NCBI GenBank assembly: GCA_900618425.1
Contig: UZAN01040004.1
Span: 10,739 to 74,738, forward strand
Direction of reading: 5' to 3'
From: Echinostoma caproni
Lineage: Eukaryota > Platyhelminthes > Trematoda > Plagiorchiida > Echinostomatidae
Length of the DNA stretch: 64,000 nt
The notes beneath the pieces are model-generated. The model was not told the DNA's origin and made no database searches. It saw only the letters and a list, made by a program, of their open reading frames with translations. This document shows positions 3,540-61,264 of this stretch, in pieces. Each line of letters starts with the position of its first letter. Position 1 is the first letter of the stretch. Position numbers and translations under genes: made by a program.

Positions 3540-6500
3540 CTGTGGTTATTCAAGATTGAAATCGAATTATCTGTAATCGTGACCTTCGAATTTCAAAGTT
3601 CTACAACAGAAAACTAACAAAAAATAACATTACTTTTGGATTTCACCCAAATGCCTGGGTAGTTAAACTACAGACTAATAATACGCTTCTTTTAGATAGG
3701 GCGTTTGAATGTTTCGTCTCAATTTATTAGGTAGAAAAAACAAATGGAAACAGAGTCGAAGAAGTAGGAACTTTTGCAACAAAACAGGAAATACGGATTT
3801 CTCAATAATTCATTTAGAAATGTGTTTAAAAGTGCACCCTGAAGGAAAGATGATGAAAAAATGAGGAAAATCGTGAGAAAAAGATGAAAAACTGACCACT
3901 CAGCTCCAAGGCCCTTGAAGTCTTGCGGATCGTGTGAACTGGTTTAACTCTGAAATGGAAATATGCACTGGCATGTAGCGTTGTCGAGGTTCGGCTCCTG
4001 AATGCTATAGTCATAGAGCCTGAGCAGCAGTTTATAATGCTGCACTCATTCGGCTGCTTTGGGAAGTCTCAGCAAGTGGCCCATAATTTAAAGAACGGGA
4101 ATTCAATGTTCACTAATCTCCAACGGTTTGAATGCATGACACTCTGAACTCAAAAGCGAATCCTGTTTCCATGATTTACGTAATCATCAGTGTCCAACAT
4201 TTTTCTTTCATAATGATCAGTGTTTGTAAATGAGTGTTGTTTCCACCTGGTGATGAATTCTTATCTGGCGCCAATGGTTTGGTGTTTCATATTTCGTTCG
4301 CAGCAGACTGTTTCTGACAGTAGCTGACATGATTGCGGTAGCCCCACTACGATATACAAAATGGAATCAGTCTCACTGAATTATAAGTTTTCAGCCGTCG
4401 ACGTCTGTCCGCCTACTTCAATGTCTCTGTCTCAATTTAACTACTCGAATCGCAATCACGTTTTTCTCTACATAAATTTATAATAATTGAAAGTTTCTAT
4501 CTGTTACAATAGTTTTGNGAGTAATTTCACCATAAAATACAGTTAATTTAAGTTTTGATCATTTCAAATGATAAGGTGCTGTTGAGGAAATCCCATGTAC
4601 GTTATCAATTTACTTGCACAAATGCTAATGGATGATCTGTGAAGATATGGCTTGATAATACAACTGAGCTAGTTAAGGCAGACAAAATCATATTTTCTCC
4701 TTTCTAATACGGTGATCGTAGCAGACAGGAGTCAATTTATCGTGTGTTGCAATTAACCTTGACGATCATTGATTCGTTTCTGTGGTAGGTTGAAGGTTCT
4801 CTTCTGGGATAAAAGCATAGCGACAAAACATTAATTCTTAACGCATCTGTTATTCTTCTTCATTGGTCTGATGTTCTTATTAACCCGGGCTTTTTGTTTA
4901 CAGGACTGCAGGAGGCTCTTACTTAGGGTTTTACTATGGTTTCACGGTTTAATATGTTCTAGAGTGAGTTCACGATGTTTCAGCGCAGTAATCTGATAAC
5001 GGAAAAGCTGAATCTGACAACGGGATGTATTAAATTGAAAAATATTTCGCGTAGTTCTATGTTTTTTTGCATAAAATCTATTCATCTAATATAAGCGAGG
5101 ATTGTTATTTCACTCGAGAAATCTCCTAGGATGGAAGGCATTGATTGCGTTTAGCAACATCCCTTAAAGTTGGCTGTGGTCCTTGACACGAAGTAAACAC
5201 GTGTGGTCAAATGGTGTGCTATATTCACTCAACGAACCCCGCTGCAACTTTGAGTACGCATTAACCCACTGTAACCAAGGATCACCCGAAAATTGAATTG
5301 ATTTCAGTCTTGACAAAATAGAACAACGGTGTAGCTCAGGGGTAAGGGTTTGAAGTTCCAACCCGAACGTTCACGGTTGCAGTCCTGACAGGGACACAAA
5401 AGGTACGCACTACTGGTGAGTCCCAAACAAGACGAAACAGCTGGTCAGTGCACTTTGTTCGTTGTCACAAACATTTTTATCGCATGTAAATGAAATTGTG
5501 GGGAATCAATGATCGCCCAAGGAGTGAAACCCACACCCAAGAACATCAAAAGTGTCTGATGCCTCTTAACAAACGAATGGGCTAATCCAAGCTTGCTAAT
5601 CTAAAAAGCAGTATAGATACTCTTACTGACCACTTGCTAATCTTTCAATAACTGATCACTTAACTGAGAAAGATTATTGAGAAGAGCAGGTTCTGACATT
5701 ATCACTGTTTTAATTGCTATTTACCACGGACCGTGAACTCCGTTCAGCAGCTTCGTTGAAATCGGCTGCTAATTGCGGAGTGATCTACGGAACACCAATA
5801 GTGTTTTGACTGCAGCCCAGATAGGGTTAAACTGGTAAACTTGGCACCACGAAGTCTCTTTTTTTGGCTTCAACATTTGTAACTTTCGTGTTTCTCATTT
5901 ACTCCAGCTACTGGCATAAATCTTCGTTCTCATTCGTCTGACAGCGAGAACTGCAAGAATTTATTAGAAGGTCACAAACAACCAAACTGAGTGAATAATT
6001 GTTTGTATTACAGAGTTTGACTTGTGATAAATGTAAGTGATTTTGACGAGGAGTAAAAACATTTATTAGCGCCGTGGTTCATAATGGACCACATACATTG
6101 ACGCATTCTGTGTCATTCAACAACAAAAATCAGTTTCGTCCAACGCCAGTGGTGAACTGATGGTGATGAAAACTATCAGTTGAAAAGACAGCTCTCGGTG
6201 ATAAGGGCCTAACCACAACGCTGACGTAAATTTGTATACACAAATTCATGAAAACCACTTTCAATAGACGGGATCTTACACAGATACAATCTGCATTACT
6301 TAAATTGATTTGTAGATTGGCATCATCTCGTTTTCACAGGCTGAAGGGGGCGAATATTTGTTTTCAGCTACTTTCGATCATTATGTAAGGAAATAGTAAG
6401 GATGGTTGAAGATCAGTGCAGGTTTGGCAAACCGTGGACGGTGTGAGAGCGGGAGAGAGTGGTGTTTAGGGCTGATAATGAGAGCTTGTGTCTTAATGAG

Positions 6501-27500: not shown

Positions 27501-30500
27501 TTCTGGTGCAATGGATCCACATCCAATACGATACATTATCCCGAAATGATTCGTTCGGTTTTCTTGCGTGCATTGTGTGTTTTCCTTTGATTCTGCATTA
27601 GCCAGTACAACCAAACTCCTATGAAAAATGTATTACCGTAAACTTTGGTTAACACAAGATCAGATTTCCCACACCTGAAAAATATTTTGGTATATAAAGT
27701 TCATGATCATTTACACAAAACTGCACACTTGTATTGCGTTTCATTCGTGCTTGGTTCATTAAGGTAGAGATCCAGCCCTTGAATCGGGTGTATTTTAAGA
27801 GCACTGTGGGCAACCAGAGCTGTAGCAGAATGTGGTCGGCGTTGACACAACTCTGTGGTACACCCTGCAACACACGCTGCCGAGTCGTTCAATGTGTGCA
27901 TGTACTCCGGAATAAACCCGAATTGCTGGAGGGCTACTCAGCTAAGACCAATTTCCAAGAAGGTTTCTTCAAAGCACCTAAGCTCTGTTGAAATTCTTAC
28001 GAAGGGTGCTCTTGAACTGATTAACTACCCTCTCTGATGTTCTCNTGTTCTCAATCCTCTTAAGTTTGCTTATAAATAGTAACTTTCTTCTTTTCACGCC
28101 GTAACGTACTTTGTTCGTTGGGTGACTTTAGGTTTAGATAGAAACTGTTCGCTTTACTTTTCCTGATTATACCTGCATTTTTATTCGTTTGACCGTCGCA
28201 TTCTCATTCAACGTCTTGCTGACTGCGGCCTATGATCCGACGTGTTAAGCATTCTTGTCAACTACTTCTCTTTTAGGATGCAATTTATGTCATGCAATGG
28301 TAAAACTGTATTCCCTTCTTATGTNCTTATGTTAAATCCGGTGTCTCGCGCGGTGCCACTTTGTCTCCATTCCTTTTTCCCTTTACAAAAGCCACTTGCC
28401 AATCCATACCAAATTTGATTGCCTGTAAATATGCGGATGATGGGGTGAGTGGGTACCCGTCCAATAACGAGGTATCTTTCAACGAACTTTAACGCTGTAT
28501 GAACGACGTTTTTAGTTGGTATCTGCCTCGCTCGCTTATGCCTCATGTTACCAAGTATGTTTATGTTTCTTTGAACCTCAAATACGGCTCCCGTTATCAA
28601 ACTTATTGTAATAATTTACATGACCTTATTCTTAACAGTTAAGCATTCCCAACTCTGACTGCTGAACCCTCAGAGTCGTTCTACCCCACAATCTCCCACG
28701 GACCAGCCATGCAGAGAACATTTAAAATAAGGTTTTTCAGCTTTTCGTTTACGCTTTCAGGCTTAGGTGGCTTGCTGTTTCCCCAAATGTAATTTTCAAA
28801 TTCTTCATTACCCACACTGTTCCCCATTATATTTTACCTGTCTCTTTTCCTACCCGCTTTGAATGTACCGGACACCAATCATCACAGGTCTGGTGGAACC
28901 TCTCGTGAGTTAGTTGAGTTATTCATTTTTTTAACTACCACTATCGTCTCCGTGCTCGTAATGCGCTGCCGTTTATGTTTACCCTATTCGCACTCTTTTG
29001 CGTACACATCTCTCCCCACTTCCACTGTAGTCCCGTGAATATCGCTGAAAATTCACGATTCGGATGTATGAAGCTTAGTTTGACTTAAATTACGTTGTCA
29101 AAAACGCAAATGTCCTTCTGTTTTAGAACAACCGACCAGGCTTACCACGTTTCGCTATATGTTGGATAGCGGTGTTTGACTGTTTGAGGTCAACAAATAA
29201 CAACCTAGAATTCTCATCCGGCAACTGTCGCTCATCTTGCCCATTTCTGTATTTCCCCCAAGCAGGTTTTGTATGACCTCAACTCCCTTCCTGAAATTTG
29301 ATTGTACATTTTATACGCAACAAAATAAACGGATGTAAAAATATTTGTTTATTTATAATCTAAAAATAAATTTCGTCATATTAGTTGTTAAATTCATGCC
29401 ATTGAGAGCTCTTTTACAAAGAGAAACGACCAAAAGTAAATGTTTACAACCGTTTATAGCTAAAACCTGTATCTTAGGTGATAGTGACACAGAAGTGCAT
29501 GAACTAACCAGCACAAATTTTACCGCACCCGCTTATCTGAAAAATCTGGTAATTTCCTAGTTTTTATCGAACTCGTAGATTACAAAGAAAGGGAAAAGGA
29601 AGTGAAAAATGTCGAGTGAAAAAGCCAGCGGCAAACATTTTCTCGTTGATTATTAACGATTTTTATTGAAAAAACAGATCGATCACCTTTTCGCTTCTCC
29701 TCATCTATCTTTTTAAGTAGAAATGACTGACAAAACAGATTGCTTTGGCTGCCCTGTTCGACAGGGAAACTGTAGGATTTTATTTAGTTGCTCACGCACA
29801 AGTATTGTGTTAATCATTTGGTGCAATTATATTTGTTGCCATCCCTTTTGTAACACTTTTGGCAAGTGAATATTAAAGTTATCAGTCAGATCAGCTAAAC
29901 GCATTGCATGATAAAAATCTCTTTTCAAAGACTGTTCTGCGGCCTATAATTATTGAAACATTACCTTGCGACCCATGTGGTGGAATTTCAATGAGCGGAA
30001 ATGTTTGTGATAACTGACAAATGGCACTGGACAACTGTTTCATCCTGTTTGAGACTCGTCAGCAGTGCGTACCTTTTGTGTCCCTGTCACAAACAATTCA
30101 ACCACATTTAAAAATGCATTCAAATAGTGGGGAATTAACGATCTGAAAAGGAGTGAAACCCATGCTAAACTTCATCAACAATGCCTGGTGCCTGTAAAAA
30201 ACCGAATGGGCAGCGGTGGCCCGGTGGTGGCCCGGTGATAACGTCAACAAATTACCACCTCGGAGGACGAGTGTTCGAATTGCACCACCACCGCCAGAAT
30301 TTCCCCATTTGTGTATTGTATGGCAGCCCTTTGATTGCCGCTTCTTCCTTCCTAAAAATTTTATCATTGTGCATTCAATAAAATGAAGTAAAAATGAAAA
30401 AAATCACCATCGAAATTCATCGGGCTCTGAGAAAACATGTGCAAGAAATAAAGGAAATATCTGACTGGACGAATATCTTGTCCACTCATTGGACGCATTT

Positions 30501-33500
30501 GTGGAAGCTTTCAACACTAGAACTTTTGACTCCAAAATAATGAATGAAAAGAATATTAACCGTGCTTGTGCAATCATAACATTGTCTCAAATGCATTATT
30601 GTCATATAGATGCCAATCTGTTTCATGCCTGCAGTGAGACGAATTCAAAAACGTGTTTAGAATAGTTGGTTTGGACTGTGAAACACTGATTTTTGAGACG
30701 TAGTCATTGCTGATGAGCCTCAAAAAAATACTGCATTTACATAGGATTCACCATGAAATCGGTGGGCACGTACATTTCGTAAGCTATACTAATGACAGAA
30801 CAGTTTTACAGTACTCTTGACACTTAAAGTCAGCATCATGCATTCGCTTTTCAGAAATAATGCCGATCAATAACAACAATGGGAAGTAAATTTTATGTAT
30901 GCTCGATCTGTATGGTTTCCCATTCGCCACATGGGAATGGTAACCTCTTATTCAATTTCATATTTTACATATTTTTTATTATGTTCCCGTTTATTAGGTT
31001 CAACGCAATTAGAACAATCACAATATTTGACACATATATGCAACACAAAATAGCAAACCACACCAGAAGAATCATTCTCATTGTTGATTTGATAGAAACT
31101 AATCACTAAAAGCTAACTAGCTTAAAGGTAGATTTGAAAACTCTCAAGCGTAAACCATAAACTGAGAATATGCAGTCACGTAATATGTATTTCATATACA
31201 AATCTATCGTTTTTAAAGAATCCAACCAAAGAAAAGGAGACACACGATTCAGTTTGGACACGATAGAATGTGCCCTTCTTCTCAAACGTGTTTCGTCTTA
31301 CGTTCTGATGAACTCTCCATACACTGTGAAATGTGTGGCCTATGTAGGGAAAGACATTAAAATCCAGACATACAAAACATAACGGCTATTTGTTTGATAA
31401 AAAGTTCTTCAAGGATTAAAAAGATTCTGAAGATAAGTCCCTCAAAACTGTCATTTAATCAGAAATTCAAAATCTGAGCGAATTTGTCTGGAAAGTGTTG
31501 TTGAATTACCTTGGAGAATTATGACAATTATTTTTTCAAGAGTAACTCAAACTAATAAGTGTGATTCAATGCGTGCTCCGAACGCTCTGTGTTAAAGCAG
31601 CAGTCATTTCAGCAGTGGCCTGTGCACCATTCACCGAACTTCAAATTCACCTAAATTCAGTCTGAAAAAAGATGACCATTTTGATTTGCTCGACATGATT
31701 GCTTGAATACTCACACAGTAATGAATCGTATTTCGGTAAATAAATTTCCATTATTCCCTATCAAATATTACAGTGCAAGAAATACGCTAGAATATAGGCT
31801 ACAGAACAATGTTTTTCAAAAGGTTCATCACGTTTAGCTTAGTAAATAGCTAGTAGCTGATCATTGAAATCGTTCTTTCACTTGGGCTCCAAGCTTTCCT
31901 TCTGCGCGACCATTGCCACCTTTTAGAAGCAGCAACAACCAGATAATCTCATTTCTAACATCGAACTTCTTAAACAAGCACTTCACTATTCAGATTCCAT
32001 GAGTTATTTGTATCTGTCATTATTTATGCTACCTCTTAATTCATTATTGTATTTGTAATCCGAGGGATAGAAGTCGATCCCAGATAGGTCGAGTCCGTAT
32101 TTGGTTATTATGATACTTTAAGTTTGACTCACAGTTACTTGTGAGTAGTGGTGTGGGATAATTGGTTTTTATTTTTTTACTGTACCATTTTTGACTGATA
32201 CACACTGCCCCTTACATGTTCATCATTTTCCCTCATTCACCTCAACAGGTGAGGTGCATATGCTTTTGTTCACTCACAAAGGAAAATACTGACAAAATTG
32301 TTCTTTCACACTTCAGTTTGGGATGTAGTAGGCAGTACTAAACTCTATGAATTTGGTCTCTTGAACTGATTATTATCAACCTCAGTCCTGGCAGTTGAAC
32401 ATTGTGGGATCTATCATACATCCGAGTGGTGCCGTTGACTCACACCAAAACAGAGCTATCCACCAACAAAACAGGGTGAGTATGCTAGATTCTAAATTCT
32501 GCAATCTCCAAGCAACGTACTCAGGTAAATGAGAAACTGCGAGAGGCACAGATTTCAAACAAAGCTGAAGCAACTGTTAAAAATCCGAATGCAATTTCAT
32601 AGCAGTGCTTTTGACGCATATTAGGTAGGCCCTTTATCATGTGAGCCGCATTCATAAAACAAAGTTATCTCATGCTGTTGTCAAACGGATTTCCGAGCCG
32701 AACGCAACTTTTCGATACATGGATGAGTTGCGCTACACAACCTTAACCGTTAGTCTCATGATCTTTTAAATATTTCTGTTAAATCAGTAGCAAATTGCCA
32801 ACTACTCACTGGATAACTGAATCCGGATCCGTAAACATTCTGAATCCTCTTTCCAAGTAAACTCTACCGATACAGTATCCACCTTCGCTGAGTACTTCTG
32901 TAGATAAGGGTATAGCCACGGATTGGTTAGTCAGCAAAATGTCAGCCAGCCAGTTCCAAAATTTGCACCGATCCCTGTTGCTCAGCTGTACAAATCCGCC
33001 ATGAAAGCGTAAAACTGCCACAGTCGGTGCACGCTGATAGCACTTTAGGGGATCCGAATTTCTCGTCACATTAATAGTGTCCGATCCCAAACTGAAGTAC
33101 GAAGAACCGGGTTCGGGTAGTGTAATGGCAGTCTCCAGCTGTAACTGCAAAGTAACTCGAGTTTTGTGTATGCCCTGAGGTTTGACAACAAGGAGATTGA
33201 TCAAATCGGAACTGGTGCTGTTCCAGTGAAGCGATTGATTTTCCAGAAAATGATCAAAGTCCGTTCGGAGACAGAAACCTCTTAGATGCCATCGAAATTG
33301 TTCAAGGTTATTCTGATTGCCAAATTTTACAAGTAGCATGCATCGGGGTATCCGTGATCTGATCTGTAAGAGGGCCAAAATGAACAACCAAATGGAAGAC
33401 ATTATTTGATGACCAAATAAAATAATCGTGTATTATGTGTTCAAAATTTCTTCTCACTATTTTTCAACGAAACCTCCCTTGAATCTCTATTTATTTCAAT

Positions 33501-45500: not shown

Positions 45501-48500
45501 GTTTGGATCCCATCAGCCTAAAGGCTAGTAGTGAGACGCGCAAGGTGCGATACTTGCTTTATGCTCGTAAAGATAGATTGTGCTACATCGTTTATGTAAA
45601 TCGTTTTATGTAAATTTAGAAACGGCTGCCTGGTGGTCAAGTAGGTAGTGTGCTTGTGTTCTGCGTGTGAGATCCCGTGTTCGATCCTCGGTTGGGTGTC
45701 ACTGCTGATGAGAAGCATTCAGGTTCAAACAGCTGTCCACTGCTTCATAGCTTTTCATTGAACGTCTCGTCTGCCCTTTACACGACGAAATTCACCAGTT
45801 AAACCCCGTCATTACTAGTCCTTAGCAGACAAACTTGATATACCTTTTGGATAATGGAGAGACAGATAGATGTCCCTGCGCTTATTAGAACGAGTTGCCC
45901 TCCTCAATGTTTGCCAGTGACAAAAAAAATTTGCTGGAAGTTAATCAATCTTCCATATGTGTACCGCAGTAATTTATCCCTACCGTCACTTCAACATAAC
46001 CTGAAATCGGAGAAAATCGATATCAGATCTTTTAAGTATCACTAGGTTAAAAATTCAGTTCAGTGGTTCATCCAATCAGCACCGGCTATTTTAAAATGTG
46101 GGAGCTTGCATGGAGTAAGTTCAGAATCTACTTCGTACTTAGCACTATGCACACGCCTTTTGGTTGTGGATCGTCTAGCTCAGAATTAATTGAGCTAACT
46201 AACAACTCGCAAGTTAGTGATTCGGATCGCACTTAGAACACAAAAGAGTATCGAGAAAGATGAGTAACCACGAGGAGGAATCAGTAGTCCAGTGCCATTG
46301 ATTAGAGTCAAAAGGGTATTAGTTAAACGATCACAGTAACGGATTTGTATATCTATCCGAAATCAGAGCGAAGAGAGCCGAATTGACTGGCATTTAGCTT
46401 TCTCCGCTTCAGGCATTCGGATGAAACTTCATTGCATTGGCAATGATCTGGAACACGGATACAGTAAATTCGAATTACTCCTACAACTTTTCGCTTCTCG
46501 GGGACAAAACGCATGCCTCACAAACCAAATAGCAGATCAGCTTGCTGTTCTGCATCCGATTTGGATTACACCTATCACGTATGTGAATTACATTAGTTAG
46601 CACAATAGTTGATGACCAACGAGCGCTCTAATCACCTGGTTTGTTGCAATAAATGTGTTAACTTCACTTTCCCATTAGCATAACACACACGCGTATACAT
46701 TATGTCCATACTGCCGTTGGACGCAATGTTTGATCTCTGCATCAAAGCTCCATATAACCGATCCTATTATAGACCCGGTTTGGGGTGGACAGAGTAGAGT
46801 AACAGGCCATTCACTGCCTATTATCCCGTCATCCTCCATCTTCTGCTCTCCATTGTACTCAAATAGCGGACATTCTGGCGACTTTACTCACCAACCCAAT
46901 TGGTTTGTCGTTTGTATAGCTGATAACTGTGCACTCTTTTGTTGTCATTTGTGTCAGCTGTGCAGTTAGTGTGGGGATTTCAGGTAGGGCAGCGGGTGCA
47001 ATAATGAAGCCAGTGGGGTGGATGAGATATCAGTTGCAGTTTTCCGCTCATTTAAATTGTTAAATGAAAAAATTATTCAACTGATGTATATCCTTTTGGA
47101 CTTCTACAATGAAACGGTAATTCATTTTCGATGGTAAATGTTTGGATTAGCCCATTCGGCTTTTCACAGGAACCAGGCACGTTTGGTGAAGTTTGCAGTG
47201 GGTTTCACTCATTGAGAGATCGTTAATCCTTTACTAATTGAATGCATTTAAGTGCAGTGAAAATGTTTGTGATAATCGACAAAGAGCACTGAACAGCTGT
47301 TTCGTCCTGTTTGGGACTTATCAGCAGTGTGAACGTTTTGTGTGCCTGTCAGGAGAATTAAAGATCTCCCAATGAGTGAAACTCACACCAAACTTCATCA
47401 ACAGTGCCTGGTGCCTGTGAAAAACCGAATGGGCTAATCCAAACATTCACCATATAAATTGATTAAGCCGTTCGCACAAAGTGATAACCGTTGACCGTGT
47501 AGCTAAGTCTCGACCCAATTGTTCGCGGTTCGAGTTCTGCTGGGGACGCAGAAAGTACGCACTGCTGAGGAGTCCCAAACAGGGCGAAACATTTGTCCAG
47601 TGCTCTTTGTCGATTATCACAAACACTTCCACCCTATTAAAACTGTTATTCACTTTAGTCACAAGAGATCCATGGACGGAACGGATCTCACTGAAAAACT
47701 TGGGCTTCGTGCTCATGATTATTGAGCAAATTGGCTTGTCTTTGTTTGAGATACCAATCAGTATATTATGTGTTAAAGCATGTTCAAATTTCCTAATAGT
47801 TTATTCACTAGAGATGTGAAGCAACGCAACATTCACATTCAACTACATTTACGTAAGCGGTCAGATTGAGCCAAATTTTCATTCATGTTTGATTGCAATC
47901 TTAACTGCTTGCTCTTGTGCAAGCACTTGGATCGCAATAGGACAGTCATTTTAGTGGAACAGAATAGAACACTTTGTGTGAACCCCCAAATCTGGCTTAC
48001 AAAGTGGTATAAACATTTTCGAATTTCCATGATCAACTTAAGGCTCAATGAACCAAACATTACAAAAAATATAAACGACATGGATTTCGAATGCATTGAC
48101 GTTAGGCAAGCGTAATCCGAAATTTATTACCATTGAATACTTGTACTGTCTTCAGGATATTCCCTTTTGTGAAATCAAAAGAAAAGTACTGTGCGTAGTA
48201 GAGCACTATTTGTCTGTAATTCTCTTGATCCAAAAGCGGTTTGGTACTTTCTTATAGAAAATTTATTGTTGATAATCATCATCAAAATAGCTTTTCTTAT
48301 TTGGAAGGACCACAAAAATGCAATAACGCACAATTTGCTACGCTCGGTAATGAAGATATAGTAACTCCACACGCGGTAAAATAGCAAAAAAGACTGCTTG
48401 GTACTCAAAAACTTTTCATACATCAGATTGTGATTTAACCAAATTGTTGGTCATTTGAGAAACATTGCTCTTATGTTGAGCAGATCCGTATATCAATCAA

Positions 48501-51500: not shown

Positions 51501-54449
51501 AACACATTTTGTGACAAAAAAGCAATGGGTTTTGATAATGCGTTTTTCACGTTGCTACGTTGATCTACCGTTTTCTGTTCAGGTAAATATTTGACTGTTA
51601 TCAGTAGGAAAGGTTCAGAGCATATATTTATAGTATCATAACGAAATACTTTGAAACTATGAGTCACTTGTTCAGCCTAAAGAATCATTCTACCCACAAA
51701 TATAGAGAGCCATATTTCACAGTACTAAACTTCACATATCAACAGAGTAAATCAGATTGATTTGTGATCACTTACGCATTCTATAACTTACAAAGGATTT
51801 AGTGACACGTTCTCATTCTGATAATTATTCTTCTTACAATTCAAAGACTTATCCGAAAACCCAATTGTACTCGAACAGTGTAACTCAGGTAATACTATAC
51901 CGTTACAAATGTTGTACGCGATAAGTCGTTGCAAGAAAATCTTCCGTGGCTATTTTGTATTGTGTTAATGAAACCCGTGTCACAGCAATCACAATGCAGT
52001 TTTAGGCCGTTCTTTAAATGACCATGTACTGATCGGCAAAAATAAATTACAAGAGGCATTTCGCCACATGGTACCTCGTAGATAGCACATGGTATCATTT
52101 TTGTGGGTGCCATCTATACCCGCATTTTTCAGCTTTTTCTTGTTACCGTTCTCATACTTTTCACATCTATCCTCCTTGTCGGACCAAATGAGTGAGTGAA
52201 GCACAATAACCAGAAACAACAACCCTAGATGAGCAAGGGCATTGCTTATGTAAAGTGAAATAAACTGAATAAGAGATGAGGAATTCAGCAGGTAGAGAAA
52301 GGTAAAATTTTCAATCGCACCCCATGACTAGTGCAATGTTTTTTGAGCTCAGAATTCAAACAAGAGTGCTCTTGACAGCGATCTAATGGTAACCCGATTT
52401 TATTCACTTAATAATTCCCTGACAGTGAGTGTGTTTTGGTCCACCTCCACCAGTTCCCCTAAATATACAATGTTTCCGGTAAAATAGACAGTCACATTCA
52501 GTTGGACACTTTCTAGCATCATCGCAAAATAGACATCGGAGATGAAGCGCTCACCACCATCAAAAACCATCAAATAACCGGACACATGCCAGTTCCACTG
52601 GATTTTATGCTCTATCAAGGAACGAAATGGGTTCACTTGAAACTGCTTCACCCAGCCATCAGACAACAATAATTCAAAGTGTTGCAGAATGGAAACAAGT
52701 GTTTTAACAACGTGCTCCAGAGCAGCTATAAAACCACTCAAGTGAACAACAACAGCCACGCACGTTTTGTAAAGCATGATTTCGTTTCCTCCGAGGTCCT
52801 GATATTTGAGGCACCGGCAAACCACTGGTCACGATCGCATCATATGCAAAACTGGCCTCGCCCAGTCATTAAATTGGGAAGACTCTGACTGATAATTCTC
52901 CGGAAATAGAAATACAAACAAGAAACATGGCCATGTTCACAATTTCTCTTTTAAAGTTTAGTTTTCTAATGGTTGAAACGTTTGTTAATACAAAACTTAT
53001 CTAAGCTACAATTTGGTTACACAACGACAGAATCTGTGACAATCACTCTGGACCAGATCACAGCATGCATTCATTGGTATTAATTCATTTTGCAAGATAA
53101 AGGATAATAGAATTTGCCAATTATATACCCCTTTTCCTTCAGCGCATCTTACAGCAGAGAAACACATTTCGAACACTATTGGAATCAGAATGCCAACAGA
53201 TTGCGATAAATTCGCTCAAGGGTTATTCTGTCACGAAATGGACGATGTGCATGGGAGGGTGTTGTGACCCTGTTTATAATTCAGAAAAGAATTGAATCGA
53301 TCGATTTTCAGAACAATGAAACTCTCCGAATGGGAAAATTATTCCACCTTCTCAGCAGCCCTGATCACGCACGTTAAGTGAACGGTTTTCTTCAGCATGT
53401 CACTCACACAAATTGTGACCAGCAGCAAAATAGTGAACAATATGTCAGATGCAGCGCGATATTCATTTCATTTGAGACAAAACAAAAAAATATTCAGACA
53501 ATTGAAATGGTCACTATGCTTGATTGCCTCATCCAGACTCTCCTGCAGAATAAACCCGCTCTCTATATGAGGAGAACGCTTGTGCTTTCATTGCAAGTGA
53601 GATACGCAGGTTGGGAGAAGTTGCAGATCCCATGAATCTGATTTGACTCGAATTGGAAGTGGGTTTCAATGGTCCGATCCATATAGAAACGGGCAGTACA
53701 ACAATGAAATCTCGACAAAGAAGCAGGAATATATTTAAATGAGTATGTTCAGTCTATGTTGTCCATGAGATGCACATCAATATTAGATACGCTGTTGCAT
53801 TTTTTCGAACAGTAGTAATGATATACAGGAAAATCAATTAAACAATGAAGAGTAAGTGGTATGTTTTGTTTAGCCTCTCGATCTTGATATTAACTGTAAA
53901 TACTCCATCGAACAATACGTATGGCTAGTTATTTTCAATAACTGTTGTGTAAACGGCGACCGCCAGGAAAAAGACCGCTCGTTATTCTGGTCGAATTCTG
54001 GTGAAACATAAAGAGCATTCGTAAAAAACTTTACTGGAAGTTGATTAACAATCTGAAGGAGAAGACGTTTCAGTTACCATAACTGTATGCATTTCAATTT
54101 GTTTTATCCCTTGAATGATTCAAATATGTAGACACACCAAACTTCTTTGAATGACGTTGTGTATTTTCACAGATTCAGCGAAAACGCACATTATCCTTAG
54201 TTTATTTAACTGTTTGTATGAGTCCATACAAAGCGGTATTTCGTCTGGTGTACTTACTTCATATTGTTCAGGTAATGCAATATCAAATGGCACCCCACTG
54301 ATAATAGTGTAGTGAATGAGTTCCTCTTCCATGTAGGCATGTTGCGCTTCAACCCGTAGGTTGATTATAATGATAATGGAAATTGTCCAAAAGGTGTAAC
54401 GCCTCCATGCACCAGCACTGCATACGATGCCACGTCCGGTGGACCGCAT
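3073..54449 (-). CDS. DAG1: Dystroglycan-like receptor gene, 3'-incomplete (whole span)
   Basis: Multi-exon gene spanning about 51 kb, with the cytoplasmic end missing. Dystroglycan is a secretory-pathway glycoprotein split in vertebrates into an extracellular laminin-binding alpha part and a transmembrane beta part that binds dystrophin. The exons add to about 896 codons of extracellular sequence if the optional exon is included. Visible order: signal peptide, CADG-like, S6-like twice, dibasic site, short Ser/Thr/Pro linker, CADG, SEA-like. Potential N-glycosylation sites occur in most exons (for example NQS, NST, NVT, NTS, NRT, NVS, NAT, NLT), which fits an ectodomain. Phases agree at E4/E5 (1), E5/E6 (0) and E6/E7 (1); E1 and E3 are both phase 0. 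E3/E4 and E7/E8 need weak sites. The family call rests on remembered domain patterns, not a search. Sarcoglycan, which also has a CADG fold, is less likely because of the S6 and SEA parts. Confidence 0.7.
5325..5600 (+). repeat. tRNA-derived SINE, hammerhead family, full-length-like copy
   Basis: Short interspersed element. The head looks tRNA-derived: TGTAGCTCAGGGGTAAG resembles an A box and GGTTGCAGTCC (5375-5385) a B box of a pol III promoter. A decayed hammerhead motif follows (5407-5451), then a unique body with AGGAGTGAAACCCACAC and GAATGGGCTAATCCAAGC near its end. The same body recurs at 30.1 kb and twice at 47.2-47.4 kb, so its extent is supported by internal comparison. This copy is the only one here with head, ribozyme and tail all in one orientation. 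Confidence 0.75.
5407..5451 (+). ncRNA. Hammerhead ribozyme motif, degenerate
   Basis: The order is stem I GCACT/AGTGC, core CTGGTGA, stem II GTCC/AGAC, GAA, short stem III ACAG/CTGG, then GTC at the cleavage position. The conserved CTGANGA core has A changed to G, and stem II is damaged, so self-cleavage is not expected. Position and spacing match the intact copies at 30.0 and 47.6 kb. Confidence 0.65.
8327..8402 (-). repeat. tRNA-like SINE head
   Basis: The reverse complement starts GGCGGTGGTGGCCAAGTGG, resembling the 5' arm and A box of a tRNA, and contains GGTTCAAAGTGC (8337-8348) as a B-box-like block. A related head with the same CACCACCGCC end lies at 30.2-30.3 kb. It cannot be a functional tRNA gene: I see no consistent acceptor and anticodon arms. 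A pol III SINE is the best reading. Confidence 0.55.
9087..9131 (+). other. Bistable-looking GC-rich hairpin with T tract
   Basis: CGGGTT, AACCCGC and GCGGGTT lie within about 35 bases, so the middle block can pair with either neighbour; the second hairpin is followed by TTTTTT. It looks like a bacterial intrinsic terminator, but sits deep in a eukaryotic intron, where it could at most stop pol III or be chance. Confidence 0.3.
13662..14003 (-). CDS. DAG1: Dystroglycan-like exon E7: end of CADG and first half of SEA-like fold
   Basis: The acceptor is TCAAAG at 14004-14005, which fits the one-base phase left by E6. The exon continues the CADG fold with HAQCCTEFVLNKYV. It then runs through RLRLSLQWPKGVKSYQ, an amphipathic helix LRELNRLNATLAQALRVRV and a strand NLFIYDVSYCKG, the strand-helix-strand order of a SEA fold and of the vertebrate membrane-proximal region. 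Coding potential extends upstream of 13845 although no Met is present. Three donors are possible: after 13662 (AAAG|GTCCGG, the only one matching the E8 phase), 13657 (CCG|GTAAAG) or 13651 (AAG|GTGACC). One sequon, NAT, is present. Confidence 0.7.
14402..14519 (+). repeat. Left inverted arm
   Basis: Starts TATTCTAGTTCAAACCCCAC and ends near GGTGGGGTTG. Pairs with 15233-15388 and lacks that arm's internal block, roughly 15279-15313. Confidence 0.8.
14589..14601 (+). repeat. (GA)n microsatellite
   Basis: Short perfect GA run of about 13 bases just inside the left inverted arm. Confidence 0.6.
15233..15388 (-). repeat. Right inverted arm
   Basis: Reverse complement of the left arm with about 36 extra bases. 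The extra block is also present, diverged, at the matching position near 18.56 kb, so the left arm lost it rather than the right arm gaining it. Confidence 0.8.
17890..18725 (+). repeat. Diverged relative of the 14.7-15.4 kb repeat
   Basis: Shares collinear blocks with 14720-15400, including GTGAATGAGTTCAAATTTAA, GGTAACTCACTCAAAA, CGTTGACATGTGA and GGATGAAGCAC, separated by diverged sequence. It is in direct orientation and has no partner for the left inverted arm. Confidence 0.65.
20670..20880 (-). repeat. tRNA-related SINE, minus orientation
   Basis: The reverse complement contains GGGATCCGAAACCCGG, a B-box-like block, followed by a body with GTTCAGTGCCC and CACACGACGAAATGCCC. The body end matches the SINE at 45.6-45.8 kb (CACGACGAAATTC), so they are one family. 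Confidence 0.5.
21140..21168. other. Assembly gap (29 N)
   Basis: Run of N; no sequence information. Confidence 1.
22964..22980 (+). repeat. (TA)n microsatellite
   Basis: Perfect TA run of about 17 bases. Confidence 0.8.
25810..26371 (-). CDS. DAG1: Dystroglycan-like exon E6: dibasic site, linker and CADG domain
   Basis: The acceptor TTTGTAG at 26372-26373 and donor GTG|GTAAGT are both strong. Phase is 0 in and 1 out, 562 bases. It opens ITKWTVGDLVTPEPVKKRSS; the VKKR motif sits where vertebrate alpha-dystroglycan has its basic furin-type site, just after the S6 fold. A linker of roughly 70 residues with Ser, Thr and Pro follows, much shorter than the vertebrate mucin region. Then comes a CADG domain: KITVHQITNVQFPP, NNLVVTLY, and the signature REWISFDPKSKIVRLRPLP then HVGNHQMIL, which corresponds to the W-x-x-F-D/N and V-G-x-H pattern of dystroglycan and sarcoglycan CADG domains. 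One sequon, NVS. Confidence 0.78.
26372..27395 (-). other. Intron 5, about 1 kb
   Basis: No feature recognised. A plus-strand open frame at 26882-27181 has no identifiable motif. Confidence 0.5.
27396..27592 (-). CDS. DAG1: Dystroglycan-like exon E5: C-terminal half of S6-like fold
   Basis: The donor CAG|GTAAGC is a near-perfect match, phase 0. The acceptor TGCAG at 27593-27594 follows a pyrimidine-rich tract and matches the phase-1 end of E4. It reads SKENTQCTQENRTN then HFGIMYRIGCGS, resembling the vertebrate S6 strand that ends with LGCS, and a helix PEALQFLALLEKRF and strand IRLGDVVTISSS. One sequon, NRT. An upstream AG at 27619-27620 is a stronger-looking acceptor by position but gives the wrong phase. 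Confidence 0.72.
27593..27674 (-). other. Intron 4, 82 nt
   Basis: CAG|GTGTGG to TGCAG. It is the only short intron in a gene whose other introns run from about 1 to 20 kb, and it splits one structural domain. Confidence 0.55.
27675..27850 (-). CDS. DAG1: Dystroglycan-like exon E4: first half of S6-like fold
   Basis: Reads CVNADHILLQLWLPT, helix YTRFKGWISTLMNQARM, and strand SVQFCVNDHELYIPKYFS. This follows the vertebrate S6 pattern of Cys, short loop, hydrophobic strand, helix and strand. The donor is TTCAG|GTGTGG. The acceptor is uncertain: the AG at 27851-27852 matches the phase-2 end of E3 but has a poor tract, while the better TTGCAG acceptor (exon start 27864) is phase 0 and would need another exon between E3 and E4. 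One sequon, NTS. Confidence 0.65.
28255..29050 (+). pseudogene. Non-LTR retrotransposon reverse transcriptase fragment
   Basis: Plus-strand reading gives QFMSCNGKTVFPSYV, then SGVSRGATLSPFLF and IACKYADDGVSG (YADD at 28430-28441), then ELxRCMNDVFSWY. These are the RT palm blocks of LINE-type elements: the G-V-x-x-G-x-x-L-S-P-x-L-F block, the catalytic Y-A-D-D, and the following helix ending in W. An ambiguous base (28325), in-frame stops after the YADD block and loss of both ends show it is a dead fragment. Clade cannot be assigned by eye; CR1- or RTE-like elements are common in trematodes. Confidence 0.8.
29985..30215. repeat. Rearranged hammerhead SINE: reversed head joined to forward tail
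   Basis: 29985-30080 is the reverse complement of the head-end and ribozyme part of the SINE at 5.3 kb, while 30115-30215 is the forward tail of the same family (AGTGAAACCC, CTTCATCAACA, GCCTGGTGCCTG). The two halves are in opposite orientation, as produced by internal inversion during target-primed insertion or by two nested insertions. Confidence 0.65.
30024..30068 (-). ncRNA. Hammerhead ribozyme, type I, core intact
   Basis: Minus strand: stem I GCACTG/CAGTGC, core CTGACGA, stem II GTCT/GGAT around CAAACA, GAA, minimal stem III ACA/TGT, cleavage triplet GTC. All catalytic-core positions (CTGANGA, GAA, NUH) are present. Stem II relies on two G-U pairs, so folding may be weak. Confidence 0.72.
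30205..30310 (+). repeat. tRNA-like SINE head with CACCACCGCC end
   Basis: Contains GGTGGCCCGGTGG twice in tandem, an A-box-like block, and GTGTTCGAATTGC, a B-box-like block, before CACCACCACCGCC. Same family as the reversed head at 8327-8402. Confidence 0.5.
32810..33363 (-). CDS. DAG1: Dystroglycan-like exon E3: CADG-like half and S6-like fold
   Basis: The acceptor CTCTTACAG at 33364-33365 has an excellent pyrimidine tract, phase 0 in. The donor CCA|GTGAGT leaves phase 2, 554 bases. Apparent Met codons upstream of 33363 are intronic. The first half contains NQSLHWNSTSSDL and KPQGIHKTRVTLQL, matching the vertebrate N-terminal CADG pattern of LHW-D/N-S-x-S, then G-V/I-H and an alternating strand. 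The second half has Cys, APTVAVLRF, helix RDRCKFWNWLADILL and strand SVAIPLSTE, an S6/SEA-type strand-helix-strand. Sequons: NQS, NST, NVT, NQS. It may duplicate the fold encoded by E4 and E5. Confidence 0.7.
33706..33722 (+). repeat. (AT)n microsatellite
   Basis: AT dinucleotide run of about 17 bases. Confidence 0.8.
42681..42747 (+). repeat. Compound trinucleotide microsatellite (AGT)n and (AGA)n
   Basis: AGTAGTAGTAGT at about 42690-42702 followed, after 18 bases, by a perfect AGA run at 42721-42747. Purine-rich strand asymmetry. Confidence 0.85.
45420..45500 (-). repeat. SINE body fragment, inverted relative to the 45.6 kb copy
   Basis: The reverse complement of this stretch carries GCTGATGGGATCC and GAAACAACTATCC, a decayed hammerhead-like core. 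It ends in a CACGACGAAATTC block like that at 45780-45795, so the two copies face each other. Confidence 0.5.
45620..45805 (+). repeat. tRNA-derived SINE with decayed hammerhead
   Basis: The head carries TGGTGGTCAAGTAGGTAGTG (A-box-like) and GTGTTCGATCC (45677-45687, a close B-box match). The body then has CTGATGA, AAACAGCTGTCC and the end block ACACGACGAAATTC. The ribozyme core residue G of GAA is changed and stem I no longer pairs well, so cleavage is not expected. Its head differs from the 5.3 and 47.5 kb family, so it is a separate subfamily. Confidence 0.65.
47150..47345 (-). repeat. Hammerhead SINE copy, 5'-truncated, minus
   Basis: The reverse complement starts just after the tRNA-like head and runs through the ribozyme (47286-47330) to the tail ending GCCGAATGGGCTAATCC. 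Its own tRNA head is absent. Confidence 0.7.
47286..47330 (-). ncRNA. Hammerhead ribozyme motif, core mutated
   Basis: Stem II GTCC/GGAC and stem III ACAGCTGT are well kept. The core reads CTGATAA instead of CTGANGA, stem I has a mismatch and the cleavage triplet is GTT. Probably inactive. Confidence 0.65.
47356..47445 (+). repeat. Hammerhead SINE tail, plus
   Basis: Forward copy of the family tail: CCAATGAGTGAAACTCACAC, then CTTCATCAACAGTGCCTGG and GAATGGGCTAATCCAAAC. It is an inverted partner of 47150-47222. Confidence 0.7.
47485..47650 (+). repeat. Hammerhead SINE head, plus, tail missing
   Basis: tRNA-like head with CGTGTAGCTAAG and GGTTCGAGTTC (47527-47537, close to the B-box consensus), then the intact hammerhead, then the start of the body (TTTGTCGATTATCACAAAC). 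Confidence 0.75.
47559..47603 (+). ncRNA. Hammerhead ribozyme, type I, predicted active
   Basis: 45 bases: stem I GCACTG with CAGTGC (six perfect pairs), core CTGAGGA, stem II GTCC/GGGC closed by CAAACA, GAA, minimal stem III ACA/TGT, then GTC with the cleavage site before CAGTGC. Every conserved core residue is present. The layout, including the GTCCCAAA stem II loop strand, resembles the ribozyme known from schistosome SINEs. It lies 21 bases after a pol III B box, so it would be in the transcript. Confidence 0.82.
49394..49651 (-). CDS. Unidentified coding-like open frame, possible exon
   Basis: The minus-strand frame includes CRGNNRIIFMELVNTDA, ISPKCVQLDTTVPRT and TESVHDELILSLPIKQY. Its composition looks protein-like rather than translated intron. 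It is on the strand of, and between exons of, the dystroglycan-like gene, and an acceptor ending TTTTGATGAG could start it in phase 0 at the codon for Thr. I see no strong donor before the stop and do not recognise the sequence. It may be a skipped exon, a decayed exon or chance. Confidence 0.3.
   Translation of the reverse strand: MNAQFRFCIQTHFDETSCRGNNRIIFMELVNTDASKISPKCVQLDTTVPRTVFQTVDHQTESVHDELILSLPIKQYSVRLFFIKQ
52445..52642 (-). CDS. Candidate optional exon E2 of the dystroglycan-like gene
   Basis: Lies in a minus-strand frame open for about 140 codons. With acceptor GAAGCAG at 52643-52644 and donor GAG|GTGGAC it is exactly 66 codons, phase 0 at both ends, so it can be included or skipped between E1 and E3 without a frameshift. 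An acceptor at 52715-52716 would make it 90 codons. It reads FQVNPFRSLIEHKIQWNWH and later ERFISDVYFAMMLE and QLNVTVYFTG, alternating hydrophobic strands with one sequon (NVT), compatible with a beta-sandwich. Family assignment is not certain. Confidence 0.45.
54258..54449 (-). CDS. DAG1: Dystroglycan-like exon E1: signal peptide and start of CADG-like fold
   Basis: Starts at ATG 54449-54447; upstream in-frame sequence has only a TTG. 64 codons, ending in the strong donor GAA|GTAAGT, phase 0. Residues 1-35 form a signal peptide: WRR, hydrophobic FWTISIIIIINL, then VEA as a likely cleavage site before QHAY. Mature sequence continues MEEELIHYTIISG and VPFDIALPEQYE, comparable with the G-x-x-F-x-x-x-x-P strand pair that opens dystroglycan CADG domains. 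The A/T-rich hydrophobic stretch could in principle be an intron end, but the only AG there (TTGAAG) is a weak acceptor. Confidence 0.65.
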
Positions 54450-54837
54450 GATACTATTCCAAACTTTCCGATCCGTGTTTTCTAAACGAGGGGTCAAATC
54501 CCTCGAAGGTTGATGTTCACTGACCGGTAGATACAATGGGGTAGCTAATCAGGAAACCGCTGTAATTCATACTACGTGGCAGGCTTATTTTTGTTCAATA
54601 TGTTATTGTATCTGTATGGTATTTGTATGATATTGCACTGAGTCGAAGGATCGGACTGATGTTCAGACGGAAGAGAATAGTACACAGGCGAATGACATCA
54701 CAATGAGAGAAACGGGTAGAAGGCTAACCAGTGCAGAATACGGGAAGCAGAAGTCACAATGTTTGTACATTAATGCATACACTTGGATGCTGGAAAAGGT
54801 CCATTACTGTTGGTTGTCCGTATGTATGCGTAGGTGC

Positions 54838-59700: not shown

Positions 59701-60427
59701 ATGTCAATAAATTCAGCTACCTTATACGTGTGGGCAGAACATTAGGTTTCCTCATATATGCTTTTCTCCTAGAGTGGATTATTTTATTGCTGATGTCAGG
59801 TAATGCGCTCAAATTTTCCCTTTTTCTTTACGCTCCCAACCTAAGCAGGATTCCTCTTTTAAGTTTCCACTACTGCTAACATCCCAATATAGTTATTATT
59901 CCAATACAATACATGCGCTTTTCACCTTGAGGTACTTAAGGACTTGTCGTACGAATGAAGGATTTTGTGCTTGGAACTTATGCTGCACTGTTTGGAGTGC
60001 TAATCAGTACTCTAAATTGCAAACATCGCCAAGGTTGAAAACATAATTTTCGGTTCACGAACCGCACTCTGTCATCTGACTCTCTCAGTTAGGTGACCGT
60101 ACCCATATTGATTGATCATGCTCGCCCTCTGTTCTGGAAGCTCCAGAATCTTTCTCTTTTGCTCCAATTAACAAGAGTTTTGAAGTTATTTCTTCTACAT
60201 CCTCGGAAGTTAAGGTTTAAAGCTATTGAGAATGATTGAGAAATTCAATTAGATGAGCTGCCTGTTTCCGATCAAAGATAGAGGAAGGGAGTGTTGTGTA
60301 GCAAAATCGGTAGACGGAGCATTCATTCACCTGTACTTCTTTTGCTAAGAATCCAAGTTCTCTTCACTTTCTCTCAACATGGTATGGATCGTTTGTCTTA
60401 TGCTTCAGTTGTGATGCATGCATTCCA

Positions 60428-61019
60428 NNNNNNNNNNNNNNNNNNNNNNNNNNNNNNNNNNNNNNNNNNNNNNNNNNNNNNNNNNNNNNNNNNNNNNNNN
60501 NNNNNNNNNNNNNNNNNNNNNNNNNNNNNNNNNNNNNNNNNNNNNNNNNNNNNNNNNNNNNNNNNNNNNNNNNNNNNNNNNNNNNNNNNNNNNNNNNNNN
60601 NNNNNNNNNNNNNNNNNNNNNNNNNNNNNNNNNNNNNNNNNNNNNNNNNNNNNNNNNNNNNNNNNNNNNNNNNNNNNNNNNNNNNNNNNNNNNNNNNNNN
60701 NNNNNNNNNNNNNNNNNNNNNNNNNNNNNNNNNNNNNNNNNNNNNNNNNNNNNNNNNNNNNNNNNNNNNNNNNNNNNNNNNNNNNNNNNNNNNNNNNNNN
60801 NNNNNNNNNNNNNNNNNNNNNNNNNNNNNNNNNNNNNNNNNNNNNNNNNNNNNNNNNNNNNNNNNNNNNNNNNNNNNNNNNNNNNNNNNNNNNNNNNNNN
60901 NNNNNNNNNNNNNNNNNNNNNNNNNNNNNNNNNNNNNNNNNNNNNNNNNNNNNNNNNNNNNNNNNNNNNNNNNNNNNNNNNNNNNNNNNNNNNNNNNNNN
61001 NNNNNNNNNNNNNNNNNNN
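60428..61019. other. Assembly gap (592 N)
   Basis: Run of N; apparent open frames across it are artefacts. The right edge begins with ATATATAT, so the gap may hide an AT repeat. Confidence 1.
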
Positions 61020-61264
61020 ATATATATCTGTGATAAACACAATGTATTGCAAAGAGATAAGCCCCAAAGTCAGAAAACTACTGTACATTGGAAATGAGGA
61101 ATCTTCATCCAAATTAGAACTTCTTGAACAGAAAATGTTTTGAAGCTAAATGAAAAACAGATTAAGGACAGTTTTTCCACAGTTCTGCGGGTCTTTGAAT
61201 AAAAACATGATTTGTACACTGCCATTTCACCAGCTTTGAAAGTCACGTGGTAAAGGCGACTTAC

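Follow-up and report, generated by a model that had tools for sequence, protein, structure and literature searches.

Hammerhead ribozymes are known from schistosomes in tRNA-headed repeats that resemble short interspersed elements (SINEs) (PMC2770079, PMC8490949, PMC4918200). The SINE-like elements Sm-alpha and Sj-alpha carry such ribozymes together with a tRNA-Gln-TTG head, and about 38,500 hammerhead candidates were obtained by blastn in Schistosoma mansoni (PMC2770079). For the W elements of S. mansoni, three of five hammerheads were active in vitro, and the two inactive ones had defects in the core or at the cleavage site (PMC8490949). Here, a 64,000-nucleotide stretch of the trematode Echinostoma caproni (contig UZAN01040004.1, positions 10,739 to 74,738; referred to as the window) was analyzed for a hammerhead-bearing, tRNA-like repeat of about 320 nucleotides (nt). 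The hammerhead SINE itself is already a known kind of element; what is new here is an inverted, two-ended insertion rule and a probable link to Penelope-like elements (PLEs). With a probability of about 0.64, the hammerhead belongs to a nonautonomous, tRNA-like SINE/retrozyme of about 320 nt that was inserted by the machinery of resident PLEs.

As reported previously, rotifer PLEs have head-to-head inverted pLTRs, an extension on one pLTR and target-site duplications (TSDs) of 8 to 10 bp, and an unrelated host gene was trans-mobilized through pLTR sequences (PMC3846280). For the PLE of the lizard Anolis, the enzyme cleaves and extends both target strands, reverse transcription starts internally at two adjacent sites, and the genomic "tail" is the stretch between these two start sites (PMC11167929). 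PLEs have also been named as likely movers of retrozymes, from their shared ribozymes and their co-existence (PMC7229834, PMC7761336). In the literature searched, which was mostly non-subscription, neither PLE-dependent SINE insertion nor a two-site inverted rule for hammerhead SINEs was found.

The ribozyme was examined over the 64-kb window with the Rfam type I hammerhead model RF00163, for which the gathering score is 34 bits. A match of 50.0 bits to the full model (1-45; E 5.4e-10 in the 64-kb window) was obtained at 47559-47603 on the plus strand. The original prediction had placed a hammerhead with a complete core, a six-pair stem I and a minimal stem III at exactly this position, and all of these features were seen in the alignment. 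The conserved hammerhead core is CUGANGA, GAAA, and NUH; here it is complete as CTGAGGA, GAAA, and GTC. Stems I, II, and III consist of six, four, and three pairs, the last closed by a UU loop and with its innermost model pair flagged as nonstandard by the covariance model. The flanks of stem I beyond the 45-mer can re-pair (ACAAA with UUUGU across an internal loop), and the pairs of this outer stem were each kept in 61 to 79 of 100 pieces, so that it may possibly be a poorly kept extension.

The genome (426.5 Mb, 12,689 contigs) yielded at least 74 matches to RF00163, every one above the cut-off. This number is a lower bound because scoring covered 74 of the 66,429 first-look candidates and because the 74 do not include the contig of the window. 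The hammerhead at 47559-47603 is a member of a repeat family and no chance motif. The family unit, derived from all 74 loci, is about 320 nt long; phases 1-118 form a tRNA-like head and phases 119-163 the hammerhead, after which come a tail and an X segment reaching to about phase 320. When the unit was mapped back, 137 pieces were obtained in the 74 loci and the window. A word from the X module has 1,115 exact occurrences in the genome, and its reversed-pattern control has none. The element shares with SINEs that it is short, dispersed, noncoding and, in many copies, flanked by TSDs, and the earlier claim of an Sm-alpha design, in which a short, dispersed, tRNA-like element contains a type I hammerhead, was upheld.

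In the window, the family is represented by two inverted composites, near 47 kb and 30 kb, and by a third copy. The 47-kb composite, at about 47125-47642, is a head-to-head inverted pair with one ribozyme per direction, and its opposite-strand hammerheads are 229 bases apart. The arms are named after the site, A or B, at which their 3' ends lie:

47352..47642, plus strand: A-arm of the 47-kb composite, phases 216 to 202 (X, tRNA-like head, hammerhead, tail), 3' end at site A; 80% identity to the consensus over 307 positions
47527..47537, plus strand: B box GGTTCGAGTTC of the tRNA-like head, from alignment to the family consensus and the sequence itself
47559..47603, plus strand: type I hammerhead of the A-arm, RF00163 50.0 bits, complete core; predicted cleavage at 47597/47598, between GTC and CAGTGC
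47125..47354, minus strand: B-arm of the 47-kb composite (3' part of the tRNA-like head, hammerhead, tail, X), 3' end at site B; 83% identity over 212 positions; 3' end aligned to 47142, with the subfamily-2 terminus to about 47125 by eye
47286..47330, minus strand: type I hammerhead of the B-arm, RF00163 40.0 bits, E 1.2e-06, its 5' end facing that of the A-arm hammerhead
47112..47128, plus strand: left half of a putative imperfect TSD, 14/17 identical to the right half
47640..47656, plus strand: right half of the putative imperfect TSD, 14/17 identical to the left half
29985..30089, minus strand: A-arm of the second composite, with the hammerhead 30068-30024 (minus strand, 46.5 bits); 3' end at site A
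30068-30024, minus strand: third hammerhead of the window, RF00163 46.5 bits
30087..30211, plus strand: B-arm of the second composite, mostly X; aligned 3' end at phase 298, classed as site B
5326..5606, plus strand: third copy (5'-truncated head, decayed hammerhead below the Rfam cut-off, tail, X); 87% identity, 3' end at site B

A GTGGTGG repeat in both flanks of the 30-kb composite is a weak TSD candidate, and no inverted arm was found for the copy at 5326..5606.

The inverted arrangement predominates among the sampled copies of the family. Among adjacent pieces at most 120 nt apart in the 74 hammerhead-selected loci and the window, 50 of 52 neighbors ran minus-then-plus, two ran minus-minus, and none ran plus-then-minus. 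The opposite-strand neighbors lay 5'-to-5' in 50/50 cases, two of them in the window, and 47 of the 74 loci were inverted. The first reference unit has no self-complementarity detectable by blastn that could mimic inversion. A tandem-satellite reading, prompted by locus L006 and other pieces longer than one unit, was dropped, most sampled loci being inverted pairs.

The outward 3' ends of the pairs also follow a rule. They pile up at two sites, A (phases 183-212) and B (phase ≥292 or ≤12), whose limits were set after the pile-up had been seen. Site A lies about 40 nt past the predicted cleavage site, and site B lies about 120 nt beyond A. One end at A and the other at B were found in 36 of 50 pairs (23 A/B and 13 B/A), with at least one unclassified end in the remaining 14 and with no A/A or B/B pair among these 50 hammerhead-selected composites. 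Seven of 30 single pieces (L001, L016, L032, L047, L060, L067, and L072) have an upstream inverted B-end match scoring ≥25 (control maximum, 24; the L016 control was all N). The composites thus have the form of a Penelope-like insertion, with head-to-head inverted ends and an extension at one end.

For a second sample, 20 loci, none of them in the 74, were hand-picked from the first 100 listed places of the X word. Fifteen of these were inverted, all 15 minus-then-plus, and same-strand neighbors numbered four. Their ends were classed as A/B in nine (with site A widened to 215), B/B in one, and unclassified in five. Hammerheads were above the cut-off in 8/20 of these loci and below threshold in five more.

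Direct repeats at the outward ends scored ≥14 in 27/49 composites, versus 6% of shuffled left/right pairings, and ≥20 in 13/49, versus 0.05% of shuffled pairings; in 22/49 no outward-end repeat reached 14. Perfect repeats of 12 to 13 nt were found at L017, L020, and L064. Scores were obtained for 49 of the 50 composites; a pair in L029 that lay at the edge of the fetched sequence was omitted. The scored windows, like those of the shuffled control, extended by up to 6 nt into the aligned element end, and part of the repeat falls inside element-end bases in L013 and L050. The two arms of many loci thus share a single flanking TSD, and a short TSD around the whole inverted insert, as in PLE insertions, was found at ≥14 in 27/49.

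The lengths and junctions of the pieces bear on the template. Length exceeds 325 nt in 15 pieces, which indicates that reverse transcription passed more than one unit. The predicted cleavage site is crossed by more than 10 nt on each side in 98/137 pieces, and three pieces begin within 5 nt of it, versus 4.7 expected if starts were uniform; no accumulation of 5' ends was seen at the cleavage site or where Pol III would start. In 16/50 pairs, both arms contain a whole hammerhead, for which two RNA molecules or a multimer or circle are needed instead of one linear RNA. The 5' phases at the junction lie within 15 nt of each other in 5/50 pairs; the junctions thus join different phases, which speaks against self-primed hairpins. 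These features suggest that the template was not mainly a ribozyme-cut linear monomer; they would fit a concatemer and a re-ligated circle equally. With its type I hammerhead, a unit within 170 to 400 nt and a template of multimeric or circular type (the 15 pieces longer than 325 nt), the element resembles metazoan retrozymes. Two intact direct hammerheads were found in none of three long-piece loci that were rechecked (L006, L015, and L058), though pieces longer than one unit exist.

PLEs that could supply the machinery reside in the same genome, where GIY-YIG matches were found in five places. Locus L082 contains a reverse transcriptase open reading frame (ORF; RVT_1, 50 bits) and a GIY-YIG ORF (30.3 bits) between inverted flanks of 108 bp. 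Its reverse transcriptase has 91 relatives at E ≤0.001, the best in the brittle star Amphiura filiformis; the named trematode relatives are from Echinostoma caproni (56% identity), Heterobilharzia americana, and Paragonimus westermani, and several relatives carry PF26215. The unit of 320 nt has no reverse transcriptase and GIY-YIG ORF of its own, as an autonomous PLE would, and these lie in separate resident PLEs. It is too short for them, so it could be only a trans-mobilized partner.

The ends of these PLEs were compared with those of the SINE. The word GGCTAATCCAA occurs in both flanks of L082 and at the left end of L080, PLEs that had been found by their endonuclease and not by that word. 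The left flank of L082 (at B) and the left end of L080 leave the PLE family at about TCTAAT/TTTAAT. The right end of L080 leaves the family just after a hammerhead-like GGGTCGAAA, and that of L083 slightly later. A pattern joining the hammerhead-like stretch to GGCTAATCCAA was found in 12 places, versus none for the reversed pattern; as the selecting pattern contains GGCTAATCCAA, these 12 PLE-like ends speak to spacing and context and are no independent demonstration of the motif. Eleven of the 12 were read for 81 bases, and GGATCTA was present in 11/11; seven continue into ATACTATGAGC-like sequence, a possible ORF start, and four (L108, L110, L112, and L115) leave the family at GGATCTA. The B ends of the SINE read GGGCTAATCCAA...TCTAAA and fall into two subfamilies, the second of which (B2) shares GGCTAATCCAAACATTC with PLE type 2 at a score of 34, versus a maximum of 25 in 3,000 shuffles. 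Across four comparisons between SINE B ends and PLEs, 11 nt were shared in two, 16 nt with a mismatch in one, and 17 nt in one. Some of the PLE copies with this terminal motif stop at the position corresponding to B.

Two further observations concern the PLE loci. By eye, the hammerhead-like stretch at the ends of L080, L082, and L083 reads TTGANAA versus the canonical CTGANGA, which we take to be the changes C3 to U3 and G8 to A8 in the usual core numbering, presumably keeping the 3-8 pair. Within L082, positions 5381-5657 hold head-to-head inverted tRNA genes or tRNA-derived repeats (RF00005, 48.8 and 46.1 bits), with arms 90% complementary over 123 nt, about 240 nt beyond a PLE B motif. This may be another element with a tRNA head that was likewise inserted as an inverted pair.

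A more specific scheme, which we hold tentatively and at slightly less than even odds, is that the SINE/retrozyme depends on PLEs and not on LINEs (long interspersed elements), that double-ended priming takes place at A and B on a multimeric or circular RNA, and that the inverted pair is its normal product. As part of the main reading, we infer the enzyme, the order of events and the part played by ribozyme cleavage; the geometry, the TSDs, the template length, the short shared terminus, and the presence of PLEs are seen in the sequence. A PLE protein would recognize the A/B region of the element RNA, and the PLE endonuclease would open both target strands. Each target DNA 3' end would then prime reverse transcription internally, one at A and the other at B, and the two cDNAs would be joined at their 5' ends. 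The template would be no ribozyme-cut linear monomer but either a concatemer or a circle closed by re-ligation. The ribozyme may process multimeric transcripts so that circular or unit-length RNA results, a role proposed earlier for metazoan retrozymes. Ribozyme mutants left insertion in vitro unaffected for the Anolis PLE (PMC11167929); thus, the ribozyme is perhaps dispensable for the insertion reaction itself.

Several observations weigh against insertion by PLEs or against the strength of the samples that suggest it. Site A has no demonstrated PLE counterpart, the right flank of L082 runs on past the B point, and the A-B distance of about 120 nt exceeds the 30 to 40 nt of a PLE tail. The likeness between SINE and PLE ends extends over few bases, and the test for it followed its discovery; in the 11-, 11- and 16-nt comparisons, 3 to 6 of 3,000 shuffles reach the score, and the elements compared with the B end were PLEs. 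To this are added the selection of the 12 PLE-like ends by their own motif and the setting of the limits of A and B after the fact. In an Rfam search up to E=1, the hammerhead-like stretch of the PLEs was unscored. For 23/30 single pieces (including L006, L025, L046, L054, L059, and L065), no convincing inverted arm was found. The hammerhead sample was conditioned on the ribozyme and the X sample on the B region, and in the latter, hand-picked as a whole, L089, L101, and L104 were chosen as visible facing words; leaving these out gives 12/17 inverted loci, with seven A/B, one B/B, and four unclassified. The B/B pair, L098, is itself an exception to the rule. Covariation in the ribozyme is slight, with 2/18 pairs clearly above shuffles in 100 pieces: one in stem II, with a compensating change in 4/100 copies, and one in the outer stem. 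Such slight covariation fits neutral decay of copies after insertion, and since the 100 pieces were selected by a motif fixing most of the core, the full core in 97/100 is no evidence. The reverse transcription start sites of the Anolis PLE are the same on the top and bottom strands, as opposed to one site per target end (PMC11167929), and for rotifer PLEs, self-priming on an antisense template was favored as the source of head-to-head junctions (PMC3846280).

The inverted pairs and their ends also allow other explanations. It is general knowledge that SINEs are normally moved by LINEs and that twin priming likewise leaves two 5' ends together. The element could be an ordinary LINE-mobilized SINE, its inversions the result of L1-type twin priming and its likeness to PLE ends due to chance or to a shared recognition motif. 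TSDs of about 8 to 17 nt fit LINE-type insertion, and with the B-end comparison covering PLEs, a better LINE partner is possible. However, the outward 3' ends recur at two sites instead of one, a whole ribozyme in both arms of 16/50 composites is impossible from one linear RNA, and the arms exceed unit length. In addition, no consistent poly(A) or simple tail was seen by eye at the listed ends, and the terminal motif is common to the element and the PLEs. We therefore consider movement by LINEs unlikely. Independent insertions, self-primed hairpins or DNA-level inverted duplication could likewise produce pairs, with no two-ended priming geometry at all. In the consensus, site A lies within a short palindrome, the larger palindrome at L098 extends into flanking DNA, and the rotifer inverted repeats were explained by self-priming (PMC3846280). 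Such origins are nevertheless very improbable for the family: self-priming joins equal phases, and this was approached in 5/50 junctions only; the orientation was identical for 65/65 opposite-strand pairs in the two samples; many pairs are enclosed as a unit by TSDs; and the first reference unit is free of self-complementarity by blastn. At L098, the flanking DNA around the B/B pair is itself inverted and repeated, which was not noticed in other composites.

A local host role, in which the ribozyme cuts an intron or transcript at the locus or yields circular RNA, has only a slender chance. The complete core and the 50-bit score would allow activity, as would the in vitro activity of three of five related W-element hammerheads of S. 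mansoni (PMC8490949). The antisense arm was considered as a trap for the ribozyme, and the predicted 532-nt fold of the composite did not bear this out. In the predicted minimum fold, the plus strand has 18 paired ribozyme bases with partners inside the 45-mer and 10 with partners outside it, and the minus strand has 16 and 8, so that most pair inside the 45-mer, without clear trapping by the antisense arm. However, the arms are 84% complementary over 90 nt, and on either strand the antisense arm is transcribed before the ribozyme; enforcing stems I and II in the 532-nt composite costs 3.0 to 3.6 kcal/mol. The predicted fold shows neither a trapped nor an active ribozyme. There is no direct tandem at the 47-kb locus, which has one ribozyme per direction, and thus double cleavage is not expected to free a circle; the suggestion that transcripts from this locus might be circularized was not supported. 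The window copy is about 80% identical to the consensus and so is old, probably an old, inert insertion.

The original prediction had also placed the element in an intron of a different host gene, and this found no support: none of the six ORFs that are not transposase-like (seven scanned) reaches a Pfam cut-off, and no significant match was obtained when one window ORF was compared with a large protein database and two with PDB sequences. Three long ORFs on the minus strand (25679-26371, 32806-33432, and 54120-54548) look by eye like exons of one large extracellular or dystroglycan-like protein, and no significant match to them was obtained in the searches tried. At 1533-1973 (minus strand) lies a Tc1/mariner-type transposase fragment, with PF01498 just below the cut-off. 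A run of unknown bases at about 60420-61040 (624 N in the window) makes the ORFs across it artifacts. Rfam hits to miRNA families at the composites (MIR8562 and others) were far below the cut-offs and are explained by the inverted repeat. Elsewhere in the genome, a nuclear RNase P RNA gene (RF00009, 86.8 bits) lies at L060:2578-2856 (minus strand), about 1 kb from a hammerhead copy.

For the tRNA-like head, described earlier as a pol III-type tRNA head, a part of the claim stood. The B box GGTTCGAGTTC is present in the window A-arm at 47527-47537 (plus strand), and the family consensus carries both TAGCTCAGGGG and GGTTCGAGTCC. The same arm lacks 16 consensus bases, by which most of the A box (consensus TAGCTCAGGGG) is gone and the interval between the A and B boxes is shortened, and the head is not recognized as a tRNA in the searches made. 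ARAGORN found no tRNA in the 64-kb window and, at default settings, none in the family consensus, where lax settings gave only spurious-looking calls; among the loci listed, up to L039, its one call (L025, 451-535) lies outside the element copy. With Rfam, no tRNA was listed at 47000-48200 up to E=10 or in the eight better copies tried up to E=1. In the 74 loci, a strict B-box pattern lies upstream of 30/84 hammerheads, and A and B patterns together lie upstream of 13/84.

Compared with the described systems, the element is like Sm-alpha, Sj-alpha and the W-element hammerheads in its type I hammerhead, short repeat, and tRNA-like head (PMC2770079, PMC8490949). Unlike Sm-alpha with its tRNA-Gln-TTG head, it has a head that scores as no tRNA, and the likeness is one of design rather than of compared sequences. 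Head-to-head insertion at A and B is a feature of the present element, and no description of it for Sm-alpha, Sj-alpha or the W elements was found in the accessible parts of the reports. With the metazoan non-LTR retrozymes, it shares a dispersed type I hammerhead unit within 170 to 400 nt, here about 320, and a template longer than the unit; however, those retrozymes form direct tandem repeats with demonstrated circular RNAs, whereas the element here occurs mostly in inverted pairs and is known from DNA alone (PMC7229834).

With PLEs, such as Pen2a of Adineta vaga and PAc of Anolis, the element has in common head-to-head inverted ends, an extension at one end, short TSDs, and a hammerhead motif (PMC3846280, PMC11167929). 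Internal start sites would likewise be common to PLEs and to the element as we reconstruct it, the PAc enzyme extending both target strands (PMC11167929). Unlike PLEs, the element has no coding capacity, its extension measures about 120 nt versus about 30 to 40, its head is tRNA-like, and its hammerhead has a stem III. The start sites of PAc, moreover, are equal between the strands, unlike the one A and one B of the element (PMC11167929).

The signature found here (arms joined head to head, one 3' end at A and the other at B, TSDs, and a terminal motif in common with PLEs) is countable and can thus be tested in any genome with hammerhead repeats. A lone genomic hammerhead may adjoin its own antisense copy, so that the motif says little about the cleavage of host transcripts. 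This structural signature bears on which enzyme moves animal hammerhead retrozymes. If the reading is true, these insertions would connect hammerhead retrozymes with the machinery of PLEs, a link previously argued from co-occurrence.

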